From Desulfamplus sp. (lineage in GTDB: Bacteria > Desulfobacterota > Desulfobacteria > Desulfobacterales > Desulfobacteraceae), in assembly GCA_015232555.1 (NCBI GenBank), contig JADFZJ010000008.1:1-64000 (forward strand): a stretch of DNA of 64,000 bases, given 5' to 3'. Below the pieces are notes generated by a model. That model had not been told where the DNA came from and ran no database searches. It was given only the letters and a program-made list of their open reading frames with translations. Position 1 is the stretch's first letter; every line of letters starts with the position of its first letter. Below are positions 239 through 30,588 of this stretch, piece by piece. The translations under genes and the position numbers were made by a program.

Positions 239-1885
239 TCAACCGCATGGAATCTTTATAAAAAAAGTAGTTCCTCTGCCGACTCTGCTTTGAACAGTTA
301 TATCGCCGTTAAGAGCCTCAATAGCCCTGTGAACCATTGCAAGCCCAAGACCTGTCCCCTCTGGTCTGGTTGTAAAATAGGGATCAAAAATATGCTCAAT
401 ATCTTTTTCCTCAATACCTTTGCCTGTATCTGAAACTGATATAAGTATTTTTCCTTGAGAGTCTAATTCAGATACTTTGATGGTAAGCTCTCCATTTTCC
501 TCCATCGCCTGTAGAGCATTAAGATACAAATTAAGCAAAATCTGGTTTAACCTATCAGGATCAGTTATGATATTATATCTGTTTAATTTATAATCAATTT
601 TAACGCTGATATTTTTTTGAGCCTTATCGTATTCAATCAGCTTGAGTGAGTGTGTTATCAACTCCTTAATATCGACCTCTTTTGATGTTACAGGAAGAGG
701 TTTTGCAAATTCAAGCAGTTGTGTTACTGCACGGTTCAATCTTTCTACCTCCTGAATCATTATATCTGCAACTTCAGTATCATCTTTTACATTGCTGTAC
801 CGCTCTTTAAAATAGGTGGCAAATCCCTTGATAGAGCTTAAAGGATTTCTTATTTCATGGGCAACTCCTGCAGCAAGTTTTCCCACAGCAGCAAGCCTTC
901 TGCTCCTCTCAATTTCGCTTTTGAGTTCAGAGATAGATGTTTTAGCAGAGCGATAACCTTGAAGTGCAATAATTCCAAAAACACCTGTGCAACCTAAAAC
1001 AAAAAACATAAAACCCATTGCAATGACGTGACGCAGATATTTAGATTTAGCAATCTCAACTTCTGATATGTCAAGTGCTGCAAAAATTATCTGATTTTGA
1101 TTCTGGTGCTCTGGTGTCAATCTGCCAGTTTTAGGAGGTAGAAAGTGCATTCTGAACCAGTCCATATTCCTGTTACGCACCCGCTCCCCATTGTTAGCAT
1201 CTTCATGATTAAAATCAGGCTTACACTCACCACCCTCCTCAATTATACAGAAAGGTCTTACAGGAACACCTGGTCTTAAACGTCTATGTGCAGGGGTGAA
1301 CCGCTTGAAAACCTGAAAAACCTTTTGCCCATTTTCAGATTCAATTTCACGATGCCAGATAACAGGCTCCCCATTCTGGACATTTGAACTGAAGATAACT
1401 TTTTTTGAATCTTTACCTGCTCTTGAGCTATTTTGATTAGTTCTAACCGAGTCAGCCTTAAGCTCCTTGATATCTGGCATATTTTCATACTTCTGCCCTA
1501 CCCTTTCAGGCTCACTATGAGCAAGGATTGTTCCATCAAAGTCTGTTATCATCATATATTCAACTTCTGGTTGAAGAGCAGTCTCAGTAAGAAGATTTTG
1601 AACCCTTGATACACCCCAGCTCATGGTCAACATGCCTGTTCTGGTTCCAGCCTCAAATGCCCGTATCAGAAAAATCCCCTTTCCTGTCAGCTTCTCAATT
1701 GTCCGATCATTTTGCTCTCTTATGTTATCCATAGTCATAATAACAAAAATAGGCACAAGAATTATTGCTACCCCAAAGATAACAAATGGAGAGAAACTTT
1801 GGAGTAAGTTGTTTTTTTCAGGTTGCTGACTGTTTTCAGTTTTTTTGTGGTTCTCAGATTTCTCTTTTTTTTCAAATTTTTTCAT
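239..1885 (-). CDS. Membrane sensor histidine kinase (ZraS/AtoS-like)
   Basis: A 548-residue inner-membrane sensor kinase that would autophosphorylate on His and pass phosphate to a response regulator not present next to it. A hydrophilic, Lys/Glu/Gln-rich N-terminus is followed by a membrane segment at about 33-52, a periplasmic domain of about 230 residues, and a second membrane segment at about 284-306. The H-box GVAHEIRNPLSSIKGF places the phospho-acceptor at His343. The HATPase domain fills the C-terminus with N, G1 (DTGKGIEEKD) and G2 (GTGLGLAM) boxes. There is no receiver domain. It is divergent from the epd-like gene at 2026, about 140 bp away. The ligand is unknown. The periplasmic part contains a Pro/Arg-rich, Cys-containing loop (about 200-240). 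Confidence 0.9.
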   Translation of the reverse strand: MKKFEKKEKSENHKKTENSQQPEKNNLLQSFSPFVIFGVAIILVPIFVIMTMDNIREQNDRTIEKLTGKGIFLIRAFEAGTRTGMLTMSWGVSRVQNLLTETALQPEVEYMMITDFDGTILAHSEPERVGQKYENMPDIKELKADSVRTNQNSSRAGKDSKKVIFSSNVQNGEPVIWHREIESENGQKVFQVFKRFTPAHRRLRPGVPVRPFCIIEEGGECKPDFNHEDANNGERVRNRNMDWFRMHFLPPKTGRLTPEHQNQNQIIFAALDISEVEIAKSKYLRHVIAMGFMFFVLGCTGVFGIIALQGYRSAKTSISELKSEIERSRRLAAVGKLAAGVAHEIRNPLSSIKGFATYFKERYSNVKDDTEVADIMIQEVERLNRAVTQLLEFAKPLPVTSKEVDIKELITHSLKLIEYDKAQKNISVKIDYKLNRYNIITDPDRLNQILLNLYLNALQAMEENGELTIKVSELDSQGKILISVSDTGKGIEEKDIEHIFDPYFTTRPEGTGLGLAMVHRAIEALNGDITVQSRVGRGTTFFIKIPCG

Positions 1886-2025: not shown

Positions 2026-3069
2026 ATGGGTTATAAAATTGCAATAAATGGATATGGAAGAATCGGAAGATCGATTCTGCGTGCCCTTTATGAATCTCAC
2101 CACTACAGAGAGCTTGAGATTGTTGCTATAAACGAGCTGTCTGATATTAAAACCATTGCACATCTAACAAAGTATGATACCACTCATGGGCGATTTTCAG
2201 GGCAGGTTGAAATATGTGGTAATAATTTTTATGTAAACAACAACCTTATTCATCTTAGTCACGAGCGAGATATTAAAAATCTTAGATGGAGAGAGCTTGA
2301 CGTTGATGTTGTCCTTGAGTGCACAGGCTCATTTACCTCACGCAAAACGGCTGAAGAGCATATAAAAAACGGTGCAAAAAAGGTGATCTTCTCCCAGCCA
2401 GCGGAAGAGAGCGTTGATGCTACCATTGTGTTTGGCATAAATGATCATCTGCTGACAAAAGAGCACACCATAATATCAAATGCTTCGTGCACTACAAATT
2501 GCGGTATCCCAGTTCTTAAAGTGCTCAACGATATTTTTGGAATCGAATCGGGCATTATTACAACCATACACTCTACCATGAATGATCAGCCAGTAATTGA
2601 TGCATATCATCATCACGATTTGAGGAGAACAAGATGTGCTGGTCAATCAATAATTCCTGTAGATACAGGTCTTGCACGAGGAATTGAAAGAATACTGCCT
2701 GAGTTAAAAGGCAGATTTCAGGCTGTCTCAATGAGAGTCCCAACCATAAATGTATCTGCTCTTGATATAACTCTTATACTATCAAGCAGCAAGAATATAT
2801 CTGTAAATGAGATAAATAGAACTCTTAAAGATGCTGCATCTGGCAGCAAAGACTCTTTTTTAGAGGGAAGACTTTCGGGTATTCTTGGATATACAGAAGA
2901 GCCTCTTGCATCATGCGATTTTAACCACGATTCAAGATCATCTGTGGTTGACGGCAATCAGACAAGGGTGAGTCGTGGAAATTTGGTCAAGATACTTGCA
3001 TGGTTTGACAATGAGTGGGCTTATGCTAACAGAATGCTTGACACTACGGCAGCGTTGATGAAGGTTTAA
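2026..3069 (+). CDS. epd: Erythrose-4-phosphate / glyceraldehyde-3-phosphate dehydrogenase
   Basis: A 347-residue NAD-dependent aldehyde dehydrogenase of the GAPDH fold. The N-terminus has the nucleotide-binding signature [10 protein letters not shown], and the catalytic Cys is Cys155 in SNASCTTNC, with a downstream HST motif for the catalytic His. I remember several stretches as closer to E. coli Epd than to GapA: VAINEL after the second strand, the HxxMxDQxVIDAYH segment, DLRRTR, and FNHD near the C-terminus. Epd oxidises erythrose-4-phosphate on the way to pyridoxal phosphate. Whether this protein prefers that substrate or glyceraldehyde-3-phosphate cannot be decided by eye. It stands alone on the plus strand and its end overlaps the convergent GGDEF gene by 4 bp. 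Confidence 0.85.
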
Positions 3070-3977
3070 TATGTGCAAAATCTATTTCTGCCGCTATTTT
3101 TTGCCTTGTAAAGAGCCTCATCAGCCATTTTTATCAACTCTTCTGGAGAACTGTCCTGAGATGGAACGACCGTTGCAACCCCCTGGCTTATACTTACACA
3201 ACTGTGTGTAGAAGAAGCAATATGAGGTATCTTCAGATCAATTATCTTATTCTGAAATTGCAGAGCAACATTACAAGCACCATCTGATTCTGTTTTAGGC
3301 AGAATGCAGCAAAACTCCTCACCGCCATAACGTGCTAAAAGGTCTATCTTCCGTCTTATCAAAGATTCAAGAGTGTTAGCAACAGTGATAAGACACGAAT
3401 CTCCCTCTTGATGTCCATAAGTGTCATTATACAATTTGAAATGATCAATATCAATAATGATAATTGAGAGTGGAGAAGAGTCTCGACAAGCACAATTCCA
3501 TGCAATTTCTATATATTCATTAAATCGGCGGCGGTTGGATACACCTGTTAATCCATCACGTAAAGATTGATTTTCAAGTAGTTTGCTTTTTCTTTTCAGA
3601 TCAATGTGAGTTCTAACTCTGGCTTGCACAACAATGGGTCTAAATGGTTTTGTAACGTAATCAACCGCACCTGTTTCAAATCCTCTTATCTCGTCCCGTT
3701 CATCTGTTTTTGATGTTATAAAAATAACTGGAATATCGTGAGTATTTGTATCAGCTTTTAACCTTTGACAAACTTCATATCCATCTATCCCGGGCATTAT
3801 AACATCAAGCAGAACAAGGTCTGGAGGATTATCTGACATTACTATCTCCAAAGCCCTCTCTCCGTTTGTTGCTACACGGATACTGTAGTCTGTTCTCAGC
3901 AGTTCATTTAATATTTTCAAATTATAAGGCTCATCATCAACAATAAGAATCGATGATTTTATGCAGTTTGTCTCCAT
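3066..3977 (-). CDS. Response regulator diguanylate cyclase (REC-GGDEF)
   Basis: A 303-residue cytoplasmic PleD-like protein expected to make cyclic-di-GMP when its receiver is phosphorylated. The receiver (about 8-125) has the acidic pair in IVDDEP, the phospho-acceptor Asp in [13 protein letters not shown] and the conserved Lys in YVTKPF. The GGDEF domain (about 145-303) carries the intact active-site motif RYGGEEF and an RxxD inhibitory site (RKID) five residues ahead of it, so product inhibition is likely. It lies 18 bp downstream of the large hybrid kinase (3996-7598), which ends in an HPt domain, so phosphate probably flows from that kinase to this regulator. Confidence 0.93.
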
Positions 3978-3995
3978 TATTATTATCCATTATCC

Positions 3996-6900
3996 TCAAT
4001 ATAATGCAACTTTCAGCTCTTCTGCTATATCTTTAATAGAACTCAAAGCTTTGGGAAAGTCAAAGTTATCTATCTGCTCATCAAGCTCTTGCATCAATTT
4101 AGCAAATTGAGAGTCAGAAGCCATAAACTTTGAATTAGCAATAGATTTCTTAAAATTTAAAAAACTTTCAGAGGCTTCAGGATTGCTGTTTCTAATAAAA
4201 CCGTAAAGCTCCATCAAAATAGGCGTAATTACGTTTATATCAATCTCGTCAACATTGGCAACGTTCAGATTGTTTACAGTATTAACAACATTGACCTGCG
4301 TATTGACACCTAAAACACCATTTTTATCTAAAGTTTTAAGAGAATCTAACACCTCTTGTAACGATTTATCAAAATCTGACAGAAGAGTTGCATAATCAGG
4401 TTCTCTACGCTCAATAATAGCTCTTTCTAATTTGTCTGCTGATGAATGGAGAGCATAAGCTGATATATTTCCAGCAACTCCCTTTACAGTATGAGCCATA
4501 CGTTCAGCAATTGTAATATCGCCTTTTTCTATTTCAGATTCTATCTCTCTTGTAATAGAAACATATTTTTTACCAAAATCAGTAAGAATATTTTTAAGCA
4601 GCCGTCTGTTACCTCTTATTCTTTTTAAAGCTGATTGAATATCAATGCCTTCCAAGGTTTCAGGGAGATAATCATCTATATTATCATCATTATGTATATT
4701 ATCTTTCGCCTTGCTAACTCTCTGTTGTAGTTGCTCAGTTGGTAGAATCTGCCCTTCTAATTTTTGTGATTCTTCATCTTTTGACTGCTGTAATGCTTGT
4801 CCTTCTGATGTTTTAACCGTTTTGGGTTTAATCCATTGAGCAAGGACTCTATATAACTCATCAGGATCAATAGGTTTGCTCACATAATCATTCATACCTG
4901 CCTCAATACACGCCTCTTTTGCTCCAGTCATCGCATGAGCTGTCATTGCAACAATTGGCAGATTTTGACATTCTGAGTTTTGCCTTATCAGAGCTGTAGC
5001 CTCATATCCACCCATTACAGGCATCTGAATATCCATTAAAACAAGATCATAATAATACTGCTGCTCTGCCACTGCTATTAGTGCATCCTCTTGCTGGTTT
5101 GTTTCAGATGATTTCTGTTTTATTGCAGATTGATTTTTGATTATTGCATCTAATGCCTCTTTACCGTTATTTGCAATCTCCACAACTAAGCCTACATCAT
5201 TTAGTATCTCTGTAGCCACCTGCTGATTCAAGATATTATCTTCAACAATAAGCACTCTTGCACCTTTGAGCGTATCTGTAGGTTTAATAATCTCACTATC
5301 TTCAAAACTACCAGCAGTATGTTGTGATGTATATTTAATATAAGAGTCCATACTCTCTTCGTCACAGGCATTTAATTTTGAATTTGGCACATCAGAATGA
5401 TTCTCTCGTTCAAATACTTCCACTATGGTATCAAACATCAATGAAACATTTACAGGCTTCATAAGAAAGGCTTTAATTCCAGCCTGTTCTGCCCGTTTGA
5501 CCACTTGATCTCGACCAAAAGCTGTTATCATAACTACCGTAGGCAGTTCTGATAGCTTAGCATTTTGTTTTATCCTCCTTGATGTTTCAATTCCATCTAT
5601 TTCAGGCATTCTGTAATCCATCAATACTAAATCATAACTTCTGCCTTCTGATGATGCCCTCTCAAGCTCTTCTATAGCTTTTAAGCCTGAATCTACAGTA
5701 TTCACGATAAATCCAAAAGATTTGATCTGCTCTTCATATATCTCTAAAGCAGTTTTATTGTCATCAACAATTAATACCTTTAATCCTCTAAGGTCTTTAC
5801 TTATTCTATGCTCTCGCGGCTTTGATAAAGGCTTATAATGAAACTCTGCTGTAAACGAAAAGATACTCCCCTTTCCTACTTCGCTTGAAACAGCTATTTG
5901 TCCACCCATCATCTCTGTTAAATGTTTGGAGATTGCCAACCCAAGCCCTGTGCCTCCAAATTTGCGGGTTATAGAGCTGTCAGCTTGAGCAAAAGCAGTG
6001 AATAGCCTCCCTATCTGTTCCTCGTTCATGCCAATGCCTGTATCTGAAACAGAAAATTTAAGCTTACACTTATGAGCATCTTTATTAATTATTTCGGTCT
6101 TTACAAGAACATGACCTGACTGGGTAAATTTAACGGCATTATTGCAAAGATTTATAAGAACTTGACCTAAACGGAGCTGGTCCCCAATCAATGAGAAGGG
6201 GACACCATCTTCTATTGTGCTTATGAATTCAATATCTTTTTCAGCAGCTTTTATAGAAACGATATTTGCAACATTATTCATAACATCTTCAAGGTCGAAA
6301 CAGGTGCTCTCTAACTCTAATTTACCAGCCTCAATTTTTGAGAAATCAAGGATATCGTTTATAAGTCCAAGCAGAGATCGTGCAGATGATTCTACTTTGG
6401 AGATGTAATCATACTGTTTAGGCGTAAGGTCTGTTTTGAGTGCAAGTGCAGAAAAACCTATAACAGCATTCATTGGAGTACGTATTTCGTGGCTCATATT
6501 AGCAAGAAATTCGTTTTTAGCCTTTGTAGAAGCCTCGGCAGCCTCTTTGGCAATCTTTAAATCTTTAACACGTTTTTTTTCGGTGATATCTTCCAACATA
6601 CCCTCATAATAAAGATGCTTACCATTATTATCAGAGACCACCTGAATATTTATAGAAACCTCAATTTCACTTTTATCCTTGCACAAAGCCTTGAATTCAA
6701 AATTCTTCACATATCCTTGGGTAGAAAGCATAGCAAGCAACTCTTCTCTTTTAACAAAATCAACATAAAGATTCTTTGATAGATCGTGGATGGAAAAGAT
6801 GAGTTCTTCTGGGGAATCATACTTAAGGATTTTCGCCAGAGCCGGGTTAGCAATGATAACCTTACCCGCAGGGGTTGTTTGGAATATTCCCTCCATAGAG

Positions 6901-13951: not shown

Positions 13952-14314
13952 ATGGAAGATAAGGACTTGGATTTTTTCAAAAATCTTTTGAATGAAAGGC
14001 TCAAGGATCTCATTTCTCATGCAGACGAGACTGTAACTGAAATGACTGTACCTAAAGATAACTTTGCAGACCCGACAGACAGGGCATCACATGAGGCTGA
14101 ACGCAACTTTGAACTTAGAATCAGAGACAGGGAGCATAAGCTGATTAAAAAAGTAAAAGAGGCTCTAATACGAATTGAAAATAATACCTATGGAATCTGT
14201 GAAACCTGCGGAGATGACATTTCAACTGCAAGGCTTAAAGCCAGACCAGTAACAACCCAGTGTATTGAGTGCAAAACGCGGGACGAGGTTATGGAGAAAG
14301 CTCTTGGAATGTAA
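13952..14314 (+). CDS. dksA: DksA/TraR family RNA polymerase-binding protein
   Basis: A 120-residue protein of the DksA family, which enters the RNA polymerase secondary channel and, with ppGpp, adjusts rRNA and amino-acid promoters. It has an N-terminal helical hairpin with the acidic tip motif DPTDRAS (about 40-46) and a C-terminal zinc finger C83-x2-C86-x17-C104-x2-C107. Length and order match the short DksA form found in Desulfobacterota. It lies 34 bp after hemA and 81 bp before the PHP-RNase III gene, so stringent control of rRNA and an rRNA-processing enzyme may be co-expressed. Confidence 0.93.
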   Translation: MEDKDLDFFKNLLNERLKDLISHADETVTEMTVPKDNFADPTDRASHEAERNFELRIRDREHKLIKKVKEALIRIENNTYGICETCGDDISTARLKARPVTTQCIECKTRDEVMEKALGM

Positions 14315-14395: not shown

Positions 14396-16057
14396 GTGAT
14401 TGATTTACACATACATTCAACAGCCTCAGACGGCTCGTTTACGCCCCCTCAAATTGTCAATCTCGCTGTCAGCAAGGGACTTAATGCAATTGCAATTACA
14501 GACCATGACACTATTGACGGTGTAAGGGAGGCAATTGAAGCAGGTATTCCGCATAATTTAGAGTTCATAACAGGGGTTGAGCTTAGTGCCCAACCCCTTC
14601 CAGGATATGGAAAAGATGGAAGCATTCATATTCTTGGATATGGATTCAGCATTTATGATCGGCAGATAACCAGAACCTTGGAGAAACTCGGAGATGCTCG
14701 GGCAAACAGGAATCCGCTGATTCTTGAACGCCTTAGAAATTTGGGCTTTACCTTGACAATGGACGAGGTGATAGCCATTAGCGGACCTGGGCAGATTGGC
14801 AGACCTCACATTGCAAAGGCTATGGTGGAAAAAGGCTATGTTGCCTCTTTTGACGAGGCTTTTGACCACTATCTTGGCAAGGGGCGACCTGCATATATAG
14901 ATAAATTCAGGCTCTCGTGCGTGGCAGCCATTAAAATGATTATAGATGCTGGCGGTGTACCTGTGCTGGCACATCCTGGTCTTATTAAAATAGATAACTC
15001 TTATCAACATGAATTTTCAGGTGACTGCCATTCAAAGTCCGGGCAGGAAGCTGATTTATCACCAGTCTCTGCTTGTTATCAAAACAAGTGTAATCCTATA
15101 GAATATTTTATATCTCAACTTGTTGGTATGGGGCTTATGGGTATTGAGGTTTTTCACACAGACCACTCTGAAGAGCAGACAAAATATTTTGCAAAACTTG
15201 CACAGAAAAAAAGGCTTCTAATGACAGGCGGATCTGATTTTCACGGGACAATGAAACCAGAAGTTAAAATGGGAAGCGGAATAGGAAACCTTTCAATTTC
15301 CAATGACCATTACAAAAATCTATCGATTGCTGCTGAGCGGACAAGAAAAGAGAGCAACCAGATTTCAAAACTTGAAGACAATCTCTGCTACTCGTTTAAT
15401 GACAGAGCTTTACTGATGACAGCCCTCTGTCACAGTTCATATATTAATGAGGTGCCGTCTCTTGATATAACTGACAATCAAAGATTTGAGTTTCTTGGTG
15501 ATGCAGTTCTTGGACTTGCAGTAGCCCATCTTCTTATGCAGAAATTTCCAAATATGAAAGAGGGTGAACTGTCAAAGCTCAGATCAACACTTGTGAGCGA
15601 GGCAAGCCTTTCATCAATGGCAAGACTTATGGATATAGGACGATTCATATCGCTTGGAAAAGGTGAAAGACTCACTCGCGGATCGGAAAAAAACTCAATT
15701 CTTGCAGACACATTTGAGGCGATAATTGCAGCAATCTATCTTGAGATTGGATTTAAAGAGACCTGCGAGCTTATTTCAATCTATTTTGACGCTCAGATGA
15801 ACCAGATAACATCGGGCAACGACACATGTGATTATAAAAGTATGCTTCAGGAGATGGTTCAGGAGATGGGTAACTTTATTCCATGTTACAAAATTCTGCG
15901 AGAAACTGGTCCTGATCATAACAAAACATTTGAAATTCTCCTAAATGTCTGTGATATCGAGGCAAAAGGCGAGGGAAAAAATAAAAAATCAGCAGAGCAG
16001 AACGCTGCGGCAAATGCAATGGCTATTCTCAAAAAACAGAAAGAGTTATCTTGTTGA
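14396..16057 (+). CDS. PHP phosphoesterase (RNase AM/YciV-like) fused to RNase III
   Basis: One uninterrupted 553-residue frame. Residues 1-300 are a PHP domain of the YciV/TrpH type with all expected metal ligands: H5xH7, D36-H37-D38, E62, H78, H193 in LAHPG, and D281-F-H283. E. coli YciV (RNase AM) is a 5'-to-3' exonuclease that trims rRNA 5' ends. Residues 325-553 are a complete RNase III: the signature RFEFLGDAVLG with E365 and D369, D438 and E441 in LADTFEA, and a dsRNA-binding domain (about 478-547). No ATG, GTG or TTG codon lies in frame between residues 293 and 340, so RNase III is unlikely to have its own start. The GTG start has GGAAAG eight bases upstream. A Ser/Gln/Cys-rich insert of about 30 residues (199-232) sits in the PHP half. 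No era gene follows. Confidence 0.92.
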   Translation: MIDLHIHSTASDGSFTPPQIVNLAVSKGLNAIAITDHDTIDGVREAIEAGIPHNLEFITGVELSAQPLPGYGKDGSIHILGYGFSIYDRQITRTLEKLGDARANRNPLILERLRNLGFTLTMDEVIAISGPGQIGRPHIAKAMVEKGYVASFDEAFDHYLGKGRPAYIDKFRLSCVAAIKMIIDAGGVPVLAHPGLIKIDNSYQHEFSGDCHSKSGQEADLSPVSACYQNKCNPIEYFISQLVGMGLMGIEVFHTDHSEEQTKYFAKLAQKKRLLMTGGSDFHGTMKPEVKMGSGIGNLSISNDHYKNLSIAAERTRKESNQISKLEDNLCYSFNDRALLMTALCHSSYINEVPSLDITDNQRFEFLGDAVLGLAVAHLLMQKFPNMKEGELSKLRSTLVSEASLSSMARLMDIGRFISLGKGERLTRGSEKNSILADTFEAIIAAIYLEIGFKETCELISIYFDAQMNQITSGNDTCDYKSMLQEMVQEMGNFIPCYKILRETGPDHNKTFEILLNVCDIEAKGEGKNKKSAEQNAAANAMAILKKQKELSC

Positions 16058-17202
16058 ACAACTGCAAACCTCTTGTAATTCCAATATTTATCCCGCATTC
16101 AGGCTGCCCCCATCAATGTGCATTCTGCAACCAATCCATAATAACAGAGAAGAGCAAACGATATATAATTCCATCTGCTGAGGAGATACAGCAGGTGGTG
16201 GAACATTTTCTATCTTATAAAGGCTCAAGAGAAGAGGTGGAGCTTGCATTTTTTGGAGGAAATTTTTTAGGTCTTAAACCAGATGAGATAATATTTCTCC
16301 TCTCGTCTGCCCAAAAACTTGTAAATCAAGGAAAAATTGACTCTGTTCGTTTCTCAACAAGACCAGATACAATCACCAAAGAGAGGCTTGAGCTTATAGC
16401 CCCCTACCCTGTCTCTACTATTGAGATCGGGGTTCAATCTATGAACAATCAAGTTCTTAAAGCTGCAATGCGGGGGCATACAGCAGAAGATACAATAAAA
16501 GCAATATCTCTTTTAAAACAATTTACTACTGCAAATAGAAAACAATTTACAATTGGTATGCAGATGATGGTTGGTCTTCCCTCTAAATATGATAGTGGAA
16601 AAGAAGACACCGTAGAATATAAGTCAAAGGTTGAATTTACAGACCTTTTTGATATTGCAAAATTTAAAGATGATATTGAGACAGCACAAAAAATAACAGA
16701 GCTTAAACCAGATTTTGTCAGAATCTATCCGTTGATTGTTCTTGAAGGAAGCCTTATTGCCCGTTGGTATCGTGAAGGAAAATATGAGCCGATGGAGTTG
16801 GACGCATGCGTGAAATTGGTCAAGGAGATATTTCTGCTATTTCAAGAACACAATATTCCAGTGATCAGAATGGGACTTCAAGCATCAGATATGCTTCAAG
16901 ATAAATTATCTATGGTTGCGGGTCCTTGGCATCCTGCATTTGGTCATTTGGTCTATTCTGAAATTTTTTTTGATAAAGCCATTGATCTGATTAGTAAATC
17001 GTTGAAGATGGAAACTAATAGAAAAATAGAAAATAACCATCATATACATATAACTTTAACTGTTCATAACTCTTCCATCTCAAGGCTTAGGGGGGATAAA
17101 AACGACAACATCAAACGGTTAAAAGAGATTTATCCATCAATTGAGATTAAAATAAAAGAAGATAATAGACTTGAAAGAGATCAGATAACACTATGCCTAT
17201 AA
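16051..17202 (+). CDS. Radical SAM protein (Elp3/HemN-like)
   Basis: About 383 residues with the radical SAM cluster C19-x3-C23-x2-C26 in HSGCPHQCAFCNQ. Supporting blocks are AFFGGNFLG, RPDTI, IEIGVQSMNNQVLKAAMRGH (a typical second half-barrel motif), and FVRIYPLIVLEGSLIARWY. The function in this subfamily is unsettled; it is related to Elp3-like and coproporphyrinogen-oxidase-like proteins. The start is a TTG at 16051 or 16054, overlapping the stop of the PHP-RNase III gene, so translation is probably coupled. A hydrophilic insert of about 25 residues (about 180-207, rich in Asp, Lys, Glu, Ser) follows the MVGLP motif. In other Desulfobacterota/Geobacter genomes a radical SAM gene next to rnc is common, which supports the RNase III assignment. 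Confidence 0.85.
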   Translation: MLNNCKPLVIPIFIPHSGCPHQCAFCNQSIITEKSKRYIIPSAEEIQQVVEHFLSYKGSREEVELAFFGGNFLGLKPDEIIFLLSSAQKLVNQGKIDSVRFSTRPDTITKERLELIAPYPVSTIEIGVQSMNNQVLKAAMRGHTAEDTIKAISLLKQFTTANRKQFTIGMQMMVGLPSKYDSGKEDTVEYKSKVEFTDLFDIAKFKDDIETAQKITELKPDFVRIYPLIVLEGSLIARWYREGKYEPMELDACVKLVKEIFLLFQEHNIPVIRMGLQASDMLQDKLSMVAGPWHPAFGHLVYSEIFFDKAIDLISKSLKMETNRKIENNHHIHITLTVHNSSISRLRGDKNDNIKRLKEIYPSIEIKIKEDNRLERDQITLCL

Positions 17203-30230: not shown

Positions 30231-30588
30231 TGGTGGAGGCGGCGGGAGTCGAACCCGCGTCCGAAAAGAGTTAGCAGTGACTTCTACATGCTTATCCTGA
30301 ACTTTAAATTTTGTTGAAAGTCTCCCTCAGGACGGATACATATCAACATAGCCTGATAAATTTAACCTCACATAAGTCAGACACCAATGTGAAGCGTTCC
30401 CGCATAATCGACGCCCTTTAACTGAAAGCTGCAGGAAATTTTTCAGCAGGACGGAAGCTGCCTAAGCAGCTACAGCGTAGTTATAATCGTCTGCGATTAT
30501 CTTTAGTTTCCATTGATTTTACGAGTCAACAGAAAGCTCGGCATGCTACCAAAACCTCGTCGTCTCCGTCGAAGCCTTTTCGCCCCCT
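30231..30588 (-). ncRNA. ssrA: tmRNA
   Basis: A 358-nt transfer-messenger RNA. The 5' end GGGGGCGAAAAGG pairs with the 3' end CGCCTCCACCA to form a 7-bp acceptor stem (one G-T pair), and the T arm reads GGGTTCGACTCCC. The internal frame gives the proteolysis tag ADDYNYAVAA followed by TAG, starting at a GCA resume codon, with the C-terminal AVAA expected for ClpXP/ClpAP recognition. Pseudoknot-like pairings surround the tag. tmRNA with SmpB frees stalled ribosomes. The 3' CCA is encoded. The T arm alone can look like a tRNA, but no separate tRNA is present. Confidence 0.97.

Follow-up and report, generated by a model that had tools for sequence, protein, structure and literature searches.

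A single open reading frame joins a predicted RNase AM-like PHP phosphoesterase to RNase III in the 64,000-nucleotide stretch of Desulfamplus sp. DNA analyzed here (the window), and this php-rnc join has been gained or lost repeatedly in the order to which the organism belongs. We propose, with moderate confidence, that the product is one bifunctional ribonuclease, in which the RNase III half would cut and the tethered PHP half would trim the resulting 5' ends, most likely on pre-rRNA.

A Single Open Frame Carries Both Enzymes

An earlier note on this DNA had placed a PHP enzyme and RNase III on one polypeptide, which it put at about 61 kDa, encoded behind dksA and beside a radical SAM gene. 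The fusion is genuine: a 553-codon frame contains Pfam matches to both parts (PHP at residues 3–69, Ribonucleas_3_3 at 336–461, and dsrm at 480–545, every one above its cut-off), and dksA and the radical SAM gene are seen upstream and downstream of it, respectively. The features of the locus, and one further gene of the window, are as follows.

13952–14314, plus strand: dksA, the conserved upstream neighbor of the fusion (TIGR02420, 138.2 bits)
14396–16057, plus strand: php-rnc fusion gene, a single open frame of 553 codons plus stop, with a GTG start
14396–15295, plus strand: PHP phosphoesterase half, residues 1–300, from the Pfam PHP match, fold, and conserved residues
14993–15100, plus strand: insertion in the PHP half, about residues 200–235 (alignment A1)
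15296–15364, plus strand: linker, residues 301–323, mostly a predicted helix (303–319) running into RNase III
15365–16054, plus strand: RNase III half, residues 324–553, with nuclease domain and dsRNA-binding domain
16051–17202, plus strand: radical SAM gene, the conserved downstream neighbor (Pfam Radical_SAM and Radical_SAM_C)
30231–30587, minus strand: tmRNA gene, with tag peptide ADDYNYAVAA

The fusion gene starts at the GTG at 14396, with GGAAAG read from the sequence 6 nt upstream, and its 3' end is overlapped by the radical SAM gene as listed. On the opposite strand, the longest ORF inside 14396–16057 has 150 codons.

Conservation of the Fusion in the Window's Family

A sequencing error merging two frames had been named in the earlier note as a possible undoing of the fusion. 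Such an assembly or frameshift artefact, the probability of which we consider negligible, is ruled out by the occurrence of the same fusion in 80 of the 86 genomes of the window's GTDB family, in which a match runs across the PHP/RNase III junction and the frame is open across it; nothing was found in favor of an artefact. Two of the 80 (G051 and G076) carried a stop flag, but the stop is the terminal one and their fusions are whole. The fusion gene of G079 is split at two contig ends, and G085 (88% complete) has rnc alone, with php gone and the order dksA-rnc-radical SAM retained. In four assemblies that are 70–88% complete (G066, G072, G077, and G084) no rnc was found, and in G009 (63% complete) there was no junction-spanning match among the matches listed. 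At the level of genera, the fusion is present in 12 of 14, the remaining two being represented by one with rnc alone and one in which no rnc was found. The earlier note had also raised a stand-alone rnc elsewhere in the genome, together with loss of the fusion in all relatives; the genome containing the window is 3.82 Mb in size and 96% complete, its single RNase III match is the fusion itself, no stand-alone rnc was found there, and the relatives keep the fusion.

Comparison of 12 fused-gene pairs by the NG86 method gave dN/dS values of 0.09–0.21 for the PHP half (11 usable pairs) and 0.05–0.19 for the RNase III half (all 12 pairs), values that are rough for the several pairs with dS above 1. 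For the linker, 10 pairs gave dN/dS values of 0.03–0.45 and one pair 0.74, and for the remaining pair no value could be computed; this agrees with translation and maintenance of the linker.

The RNase III Half and the Linker

Residues 327–543 match the RNase III model TIGR02191 with 229.1 bits, above the cut-off of 166.25, and Glu365, Asp369, Asp438, and Glu441, which we take to be the RNase III catalytic acids, are invariant in all 48 fused proteins aligned. An AlphaFold2 model of the fusion, built on the 48-row alignment, has a mean pLDDT of 89.7 and a pTM of 0.79. Escherichia coli RNase III (7r97) aligns with this model over 223 residues (Z 24.2, 5.0 Å), and the predicted linker helix at 303–319 continues into RNase III, whose first helix lies at 323–330.

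It is very improbable, in our view, that the frame yields two proteins, by an internal start or by proteolysis, and no fused enzyme. Between GSDFH, a motif of the PHP half, and the start of the RNase III domain, the gene in the window has just two start codons, ATGs at residues 286 and 292. Both lie inside the PHP C-terminal motif, 39 and 33 residues ahead of the domain, where either might serve as an internal start; at least one ATG, GTG, or TTG occurs in the corresponding stretch in 52 of the 59 fused rows read. However, the other seven rows (L004, L005, L006, L010, L018, L026, and L036) have no such codon, and the frame is kept even though the distance between GSDFH and the domain ranges from 37 to 63 residues. 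The linker of the window (301–323) contains no ATG, GTG, or TTG, and the statement in the earlier note that no in-frame start lies between residues 293 and 340 is borne out, the last ATG being residue 292. Shine-Dalgarno sites of at least five bases occur in 2 of 32 fused linkers, ahead of 8 of 51 separate rnc genes, and at 5 of 32 fused-gene N termini; since they are rare in every class, they do not discriminate for or against an internal start. Overall, an internal start in the fusion is unlikely.

The PHP Half Is Similar to RNase AM

According to a source on RNase AM (PMC9410882), this enzyme breaks down 5'-phosphorylated RNA processively; in the E. coli structure, its metal ligands are His13, Asp20, His45, Glu72, His83, His198, Asp255, and His257, the 5' nucleotide is surrounded by Arg107, Arg110, Arg141, and Phe161, and Arg201 forms a salt bridge with an active-site sulfate. 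In our alignment, the eight metal ligands correspond to His5, Asp12, His37, Glu62, His78, His193, Asp281, and His283 of the fusion, and the 5'-phosphate pocket residues to Arg102, Arg105, Arg136, and Phe156, all of which are invariant in the 48 fused proteins. The same holds for His7, the second histidine of the HxH motif, which we assume to be a metal ligand. The position equivalent to Arg201 (residue 196), however, is occupied by Leu in 38 of the 48 proteins, including that of the window, by Ile in seven, Ser in two, and Phe in one, and a motif-based reading of the 51 separate php genes found Arg at this position in none. The view in the earlier note that both halves keep every catalytic residue is therefore upheld, across all 48 proteins, for the metal ligands, the 5'-phosphate pocket, and the RNase III acids, but not for Arg201, which is replaced.

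The PHP half scores 164.8 bits against the NCBI RNase RNM model NF047791, below the cut-off of 375 (RNase RNM presumably being the same enzyme as RNase AM/YciV), and 180.4 bits against the 3',5'-nucleoside bisphosphate phosphatase model NF041577, below the cut-off of 400. On the RNase RNM model a paralogue in the same genome (C106) reaches 80.5 bits; by this score the fused half is the nearer to RNase RNM/AM of the two PHP proteins scored from its own genome, in which another PHP frame is found at C9. The VIA-align structures closest to the predicted model are 3e0f (Z 33.0), 3o0f (Z 32.7), and 2yb1 (Z 31.9); RNase AM from Vibrio cholerae (9etk) follows with Z 30.7 over 270 aligned residues at 2.5 Å, and the RNase AM PHP domain in 7ug9 gives Z 25.0. 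The insertion at about residues 200–235, which is present in three of four same-genus rows and in none of the remaining 10 rows of alignment A1, is modeled poorly, with pLDDT below 50 at residues 212–214 and 216–230.

Because its score lies below the cut-off of 375 and Arg201 is not retained, the PHP half was not assigned as RNase AM, and we describe it as a putative RNase AM-like PHP phosphoesterase. Of the RNase AM/YciV type proposed in the earlier note, the fold and the 5'-phosphate pocket are present, whereas the RNM cut-off and Arg201 speak against it; the wider interpretation given there stands as regards the fusion, the single rnc found, and the gene context, but not as regards the PHP half being RNase AM itself.

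A different function for the PHP half, that of a bisphosphate nucleotidase or nanoRNase acting on pAp or very short 5'-phosphorylated fragments, would place the protein in RNA decay rather than rRNA maturation. The bisphosphate phosphatase model is the best-scoring curated model (180.4 bits versus 164.8 for RNase RNM), and the fold of 2yb1, a structure with bound AMP and phosphate, matches the model as closely as that of RNase AM does (Z 31.9 versus 30.7). The order of these scores is nevertheless weak evidence because both are far below their cut-offs, and among the frames of the genome are DHH-domain ones, 319 and 341 codons long, as candidates for a nanoRNase/pAp role. A link to RNase III would, in our judgment, also be less natural for a pAp phosphatase, and we regard this function as unlikely, though it deserves weight.

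Distribution of Fused and Separate Genes

HMMs built from each half were run over the stop-to-stop frames of 231 loci. Outside the window's family, the fused gene is found in at least 16 genomes from nine other families of the same order (f24, f38, f39, f51, f58, f59, f60, f67, and f71), and the PHP part is N-terminal in every fused locus read. A sample of at least 80 loci from named organisms contained one fused locus (L057, a Desulfatibacillum sp. MAG), one in which php and rnc are adjacent with one stop between them (L056, a Desulfatitalea sp. MAG), and 78 without a PHP match in the stretch examined.

Where the genes are separate, php sits between dksA and rnc in all 51 rows of the tree set described below, forming a dksA-php-rnc operon in which the php frame lies no more than 301 nt from the rnc frame. 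Exactly one in-frame stop parts the two frames in 23 of these 51 rows, a share that is inflated because many rows were picked for a match crossing the junction. Across the tree set, dksA is upstream in 82 of the 84 rows from the order, the two remaining rows being too short to contain it, and 79 of all 88 rows have the radical SAM gene downstream; in the four rows that do not belong to the order, the radical SAM gene occurs, with php and dksA absent from the stretch. At one locus (L220, from G253), a 326-codon rnc frame on the minus strand runs into a piece that, by eye, is like the C-terminal part of the radical SAM protein; there is no downstream radical SAM match, and the locus looks as if most of the radical SAM gene had been deleted.

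A scan of 297 genomes of the phylum, 12 of them from the same order, gave no junction-spanning single open frame outside the order among the matches listed. Three long rnc frames from outside the order (L224, L225, and L226; 670–700 codons) were considered as further fusions and rejected by eye, their N-terminal parts being GC-rich alternative frames that precede an ordinary rnc start. At L091 a match reached into the PHP part, yet the HMM found no PHP match. A separate observation concerns L063 (positions 2462–4720; Deltaproteobacteria CSMAG_954 MAG), where a 753-codon frame encodes, by eye, TPR-like repeats and, after them, a whole RNase III; this may be another kind of RNase III fusion.

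Repeated Change of the Fused State

The tree set comprised 88 rows (32 fused, 51 adjacent, and five with rnc alone), 17 of them from the window's family, for which many more had been retrieved. It left out L212, in which the contig ends just upstream of rnc, L224–L229, which are from outside the order and lack php, and the 78 loci from named organisms in which no PHP match was seen. The main tree was inferred by maximum likelihood with a quick search, with support by SH-aLRT only. On this tree the fused state must have changed at least 11 times, with five changes forced by the starred branches alone, and FastTree trees of the single halves give 10 and 12 changes. A single fused clade was rejected by the AU test, being 288 log-likelihood units worse (p-AU 1.2e-41). 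The php-rnc join has been gained or lost repeatedly in the order.

Fused and separate states are mixed within f24, f59, and f71. A clear local change is seen in f24, where genus g136 is fused and nested among separate-gene rows of the same family, and several further clear local changes occur inside f59. The 16 fused rows of the window's family and G085 group in one starred clade (100), for which a fused ancestor is the simplest assumption. Fused genes also occur in several rows that branch early (f58, f67, f51, and f39), with unstarred support. The outgroup does not fall on one side of a branch, since the long outside row L221 is placed inside the order, and the root is unsure.

In G085, dksA is followed by AAGGAG and a stand-alone rnc that begins with GTG (a 233-codon frame), and these by the radical SAM gene (L231, positions 2100–2700); the sole remaining php-like match in this genome comes from a paralogue with 34% identity to the query. 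It appears to be a natural deletion of the PHP half, which seems dispensable there.

The repeated changes might also reflect a near-neutral by-product, in which the stop between operon neighbors that share one frame is lost now and then and the halves act independently. Loss of a stop can join such neighbors without benefit, only one in-frame stop separates the genes in 23 of 51 rows (the share inflated by the choice of rows), the two states intermix in f24, f59, and f71, and G085 has lost its PHP half. Against this are the presence of the fusion in 12 of the 14 genera of the window's family, the low dN/dS in both halves, and the constant N-terminal position of the PHP part, and we consider a by-product improbable. 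Since operon neighbors have been joined again and again, the simplest reading is that RNase III would make ends for the PHP half to trim, and the repeated joining suggests that the two enzymes act on the same RNA.

A Proposed Cutting and Trimming Enzyme

RNase III products bear 5'-monophosphates. In the bifunctional ribonuclease that we propose, the C-terminal half, as a dimer, would cut double-stranded RNA to leave such 5'-monophosphate ends. The N-terminal half would be a three-metal PHP enzyme of the RNase AM/nucleoside-bisphosphatase type, with a predicted pocket that fits a 5'-phosphorylated nucleotide, and would trim the ends so created, working from 5' to 3'. The tether would hold cutter and trimmer on one RNA, the likeliest candidates being the leader-trailer stems of pre-rRNA, that of 23S above all, at which E. 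coli employs both enzymes separately. For the fusion protein we infer both activities, dimerization, the substrate, and the hand-over between the halves from sequence and predicted structure, and a role of the PHP half in rRNA trimming may reasonably be inferred as well. More tentatively, the fusion may be a self-contained cut-and-trim rRNA enzyme, in which an RNase III dimer cuts the stem and the two tethered PHP domains trim the 5' ends; we see this as possible, but it commands less than even confidence. If it is true, the repeated change of state would be natural evidence, far from E. coli, for an RNase AM-like exonuclease acting directly on RNase III products.

Relation to Known Enzymes and Significance

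Bacterial RNase III enzymes (E. coli, 7r97; Thermotoga maritima, 1o0w; Aquifex aeolicus, 2nug) have the same nuclease and dsRNA-binding domains and catalytic acids as the fusion, which differs from them by approximately 300 additional N-terminal residues constituting the PHP enzyme. RNase AM/RNM (YciV; 7ug9 and V. cholerae 9etk) shares with the PHP half the PHP fold, the metal ligands, the three 5'-phosphate-binding arginines, and the stacking Phe; in contrast, the PHP half has approximately 30% identity to it, reaches 164.8 of 375 bits, has Arg201 replaced, and is fused to RNase III. The 3',5'-nucleoside bisphosphate phosphatase CV1693 (2yb1) has its fold and metal site in common with the PHP half, which scores below the cut-off of 400 of the bisphosphatase model and, unlike CV1693, is fused to RNase III. 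Dicer and Drosha likewise tie an RNase III domain to other modules and have the tethering idea alone in common with the fusion; to our knowledge, their extra domains are not PHP enzymes.

The earlier note knew of no described fusion of this kind, and our literature search, which covered titles and the openings of abstracts, most subscription papers being beyond its reach, likewise found no account of a PHP-RNase III fusion. Both parts are of known kinds; within the reach of these searches, no description exists of the joined enzyme, of its distribution, or of the repeated change between fused and separate genes.

The 5'-end maturation of bacterial rRNA is poorly known beyond a few model species, and even for E. 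coli RNase AM has been added to the picture recently. A fusion that is kept across nearly the whole family, and repeatedly gained or lost in the order, points to direct cooperation between cutting and 5' trimming. It offers a single protein on which such cooperation can be tested, with natural controls in G085, which is without the PHP half, and in the sister lineages with separate genes.
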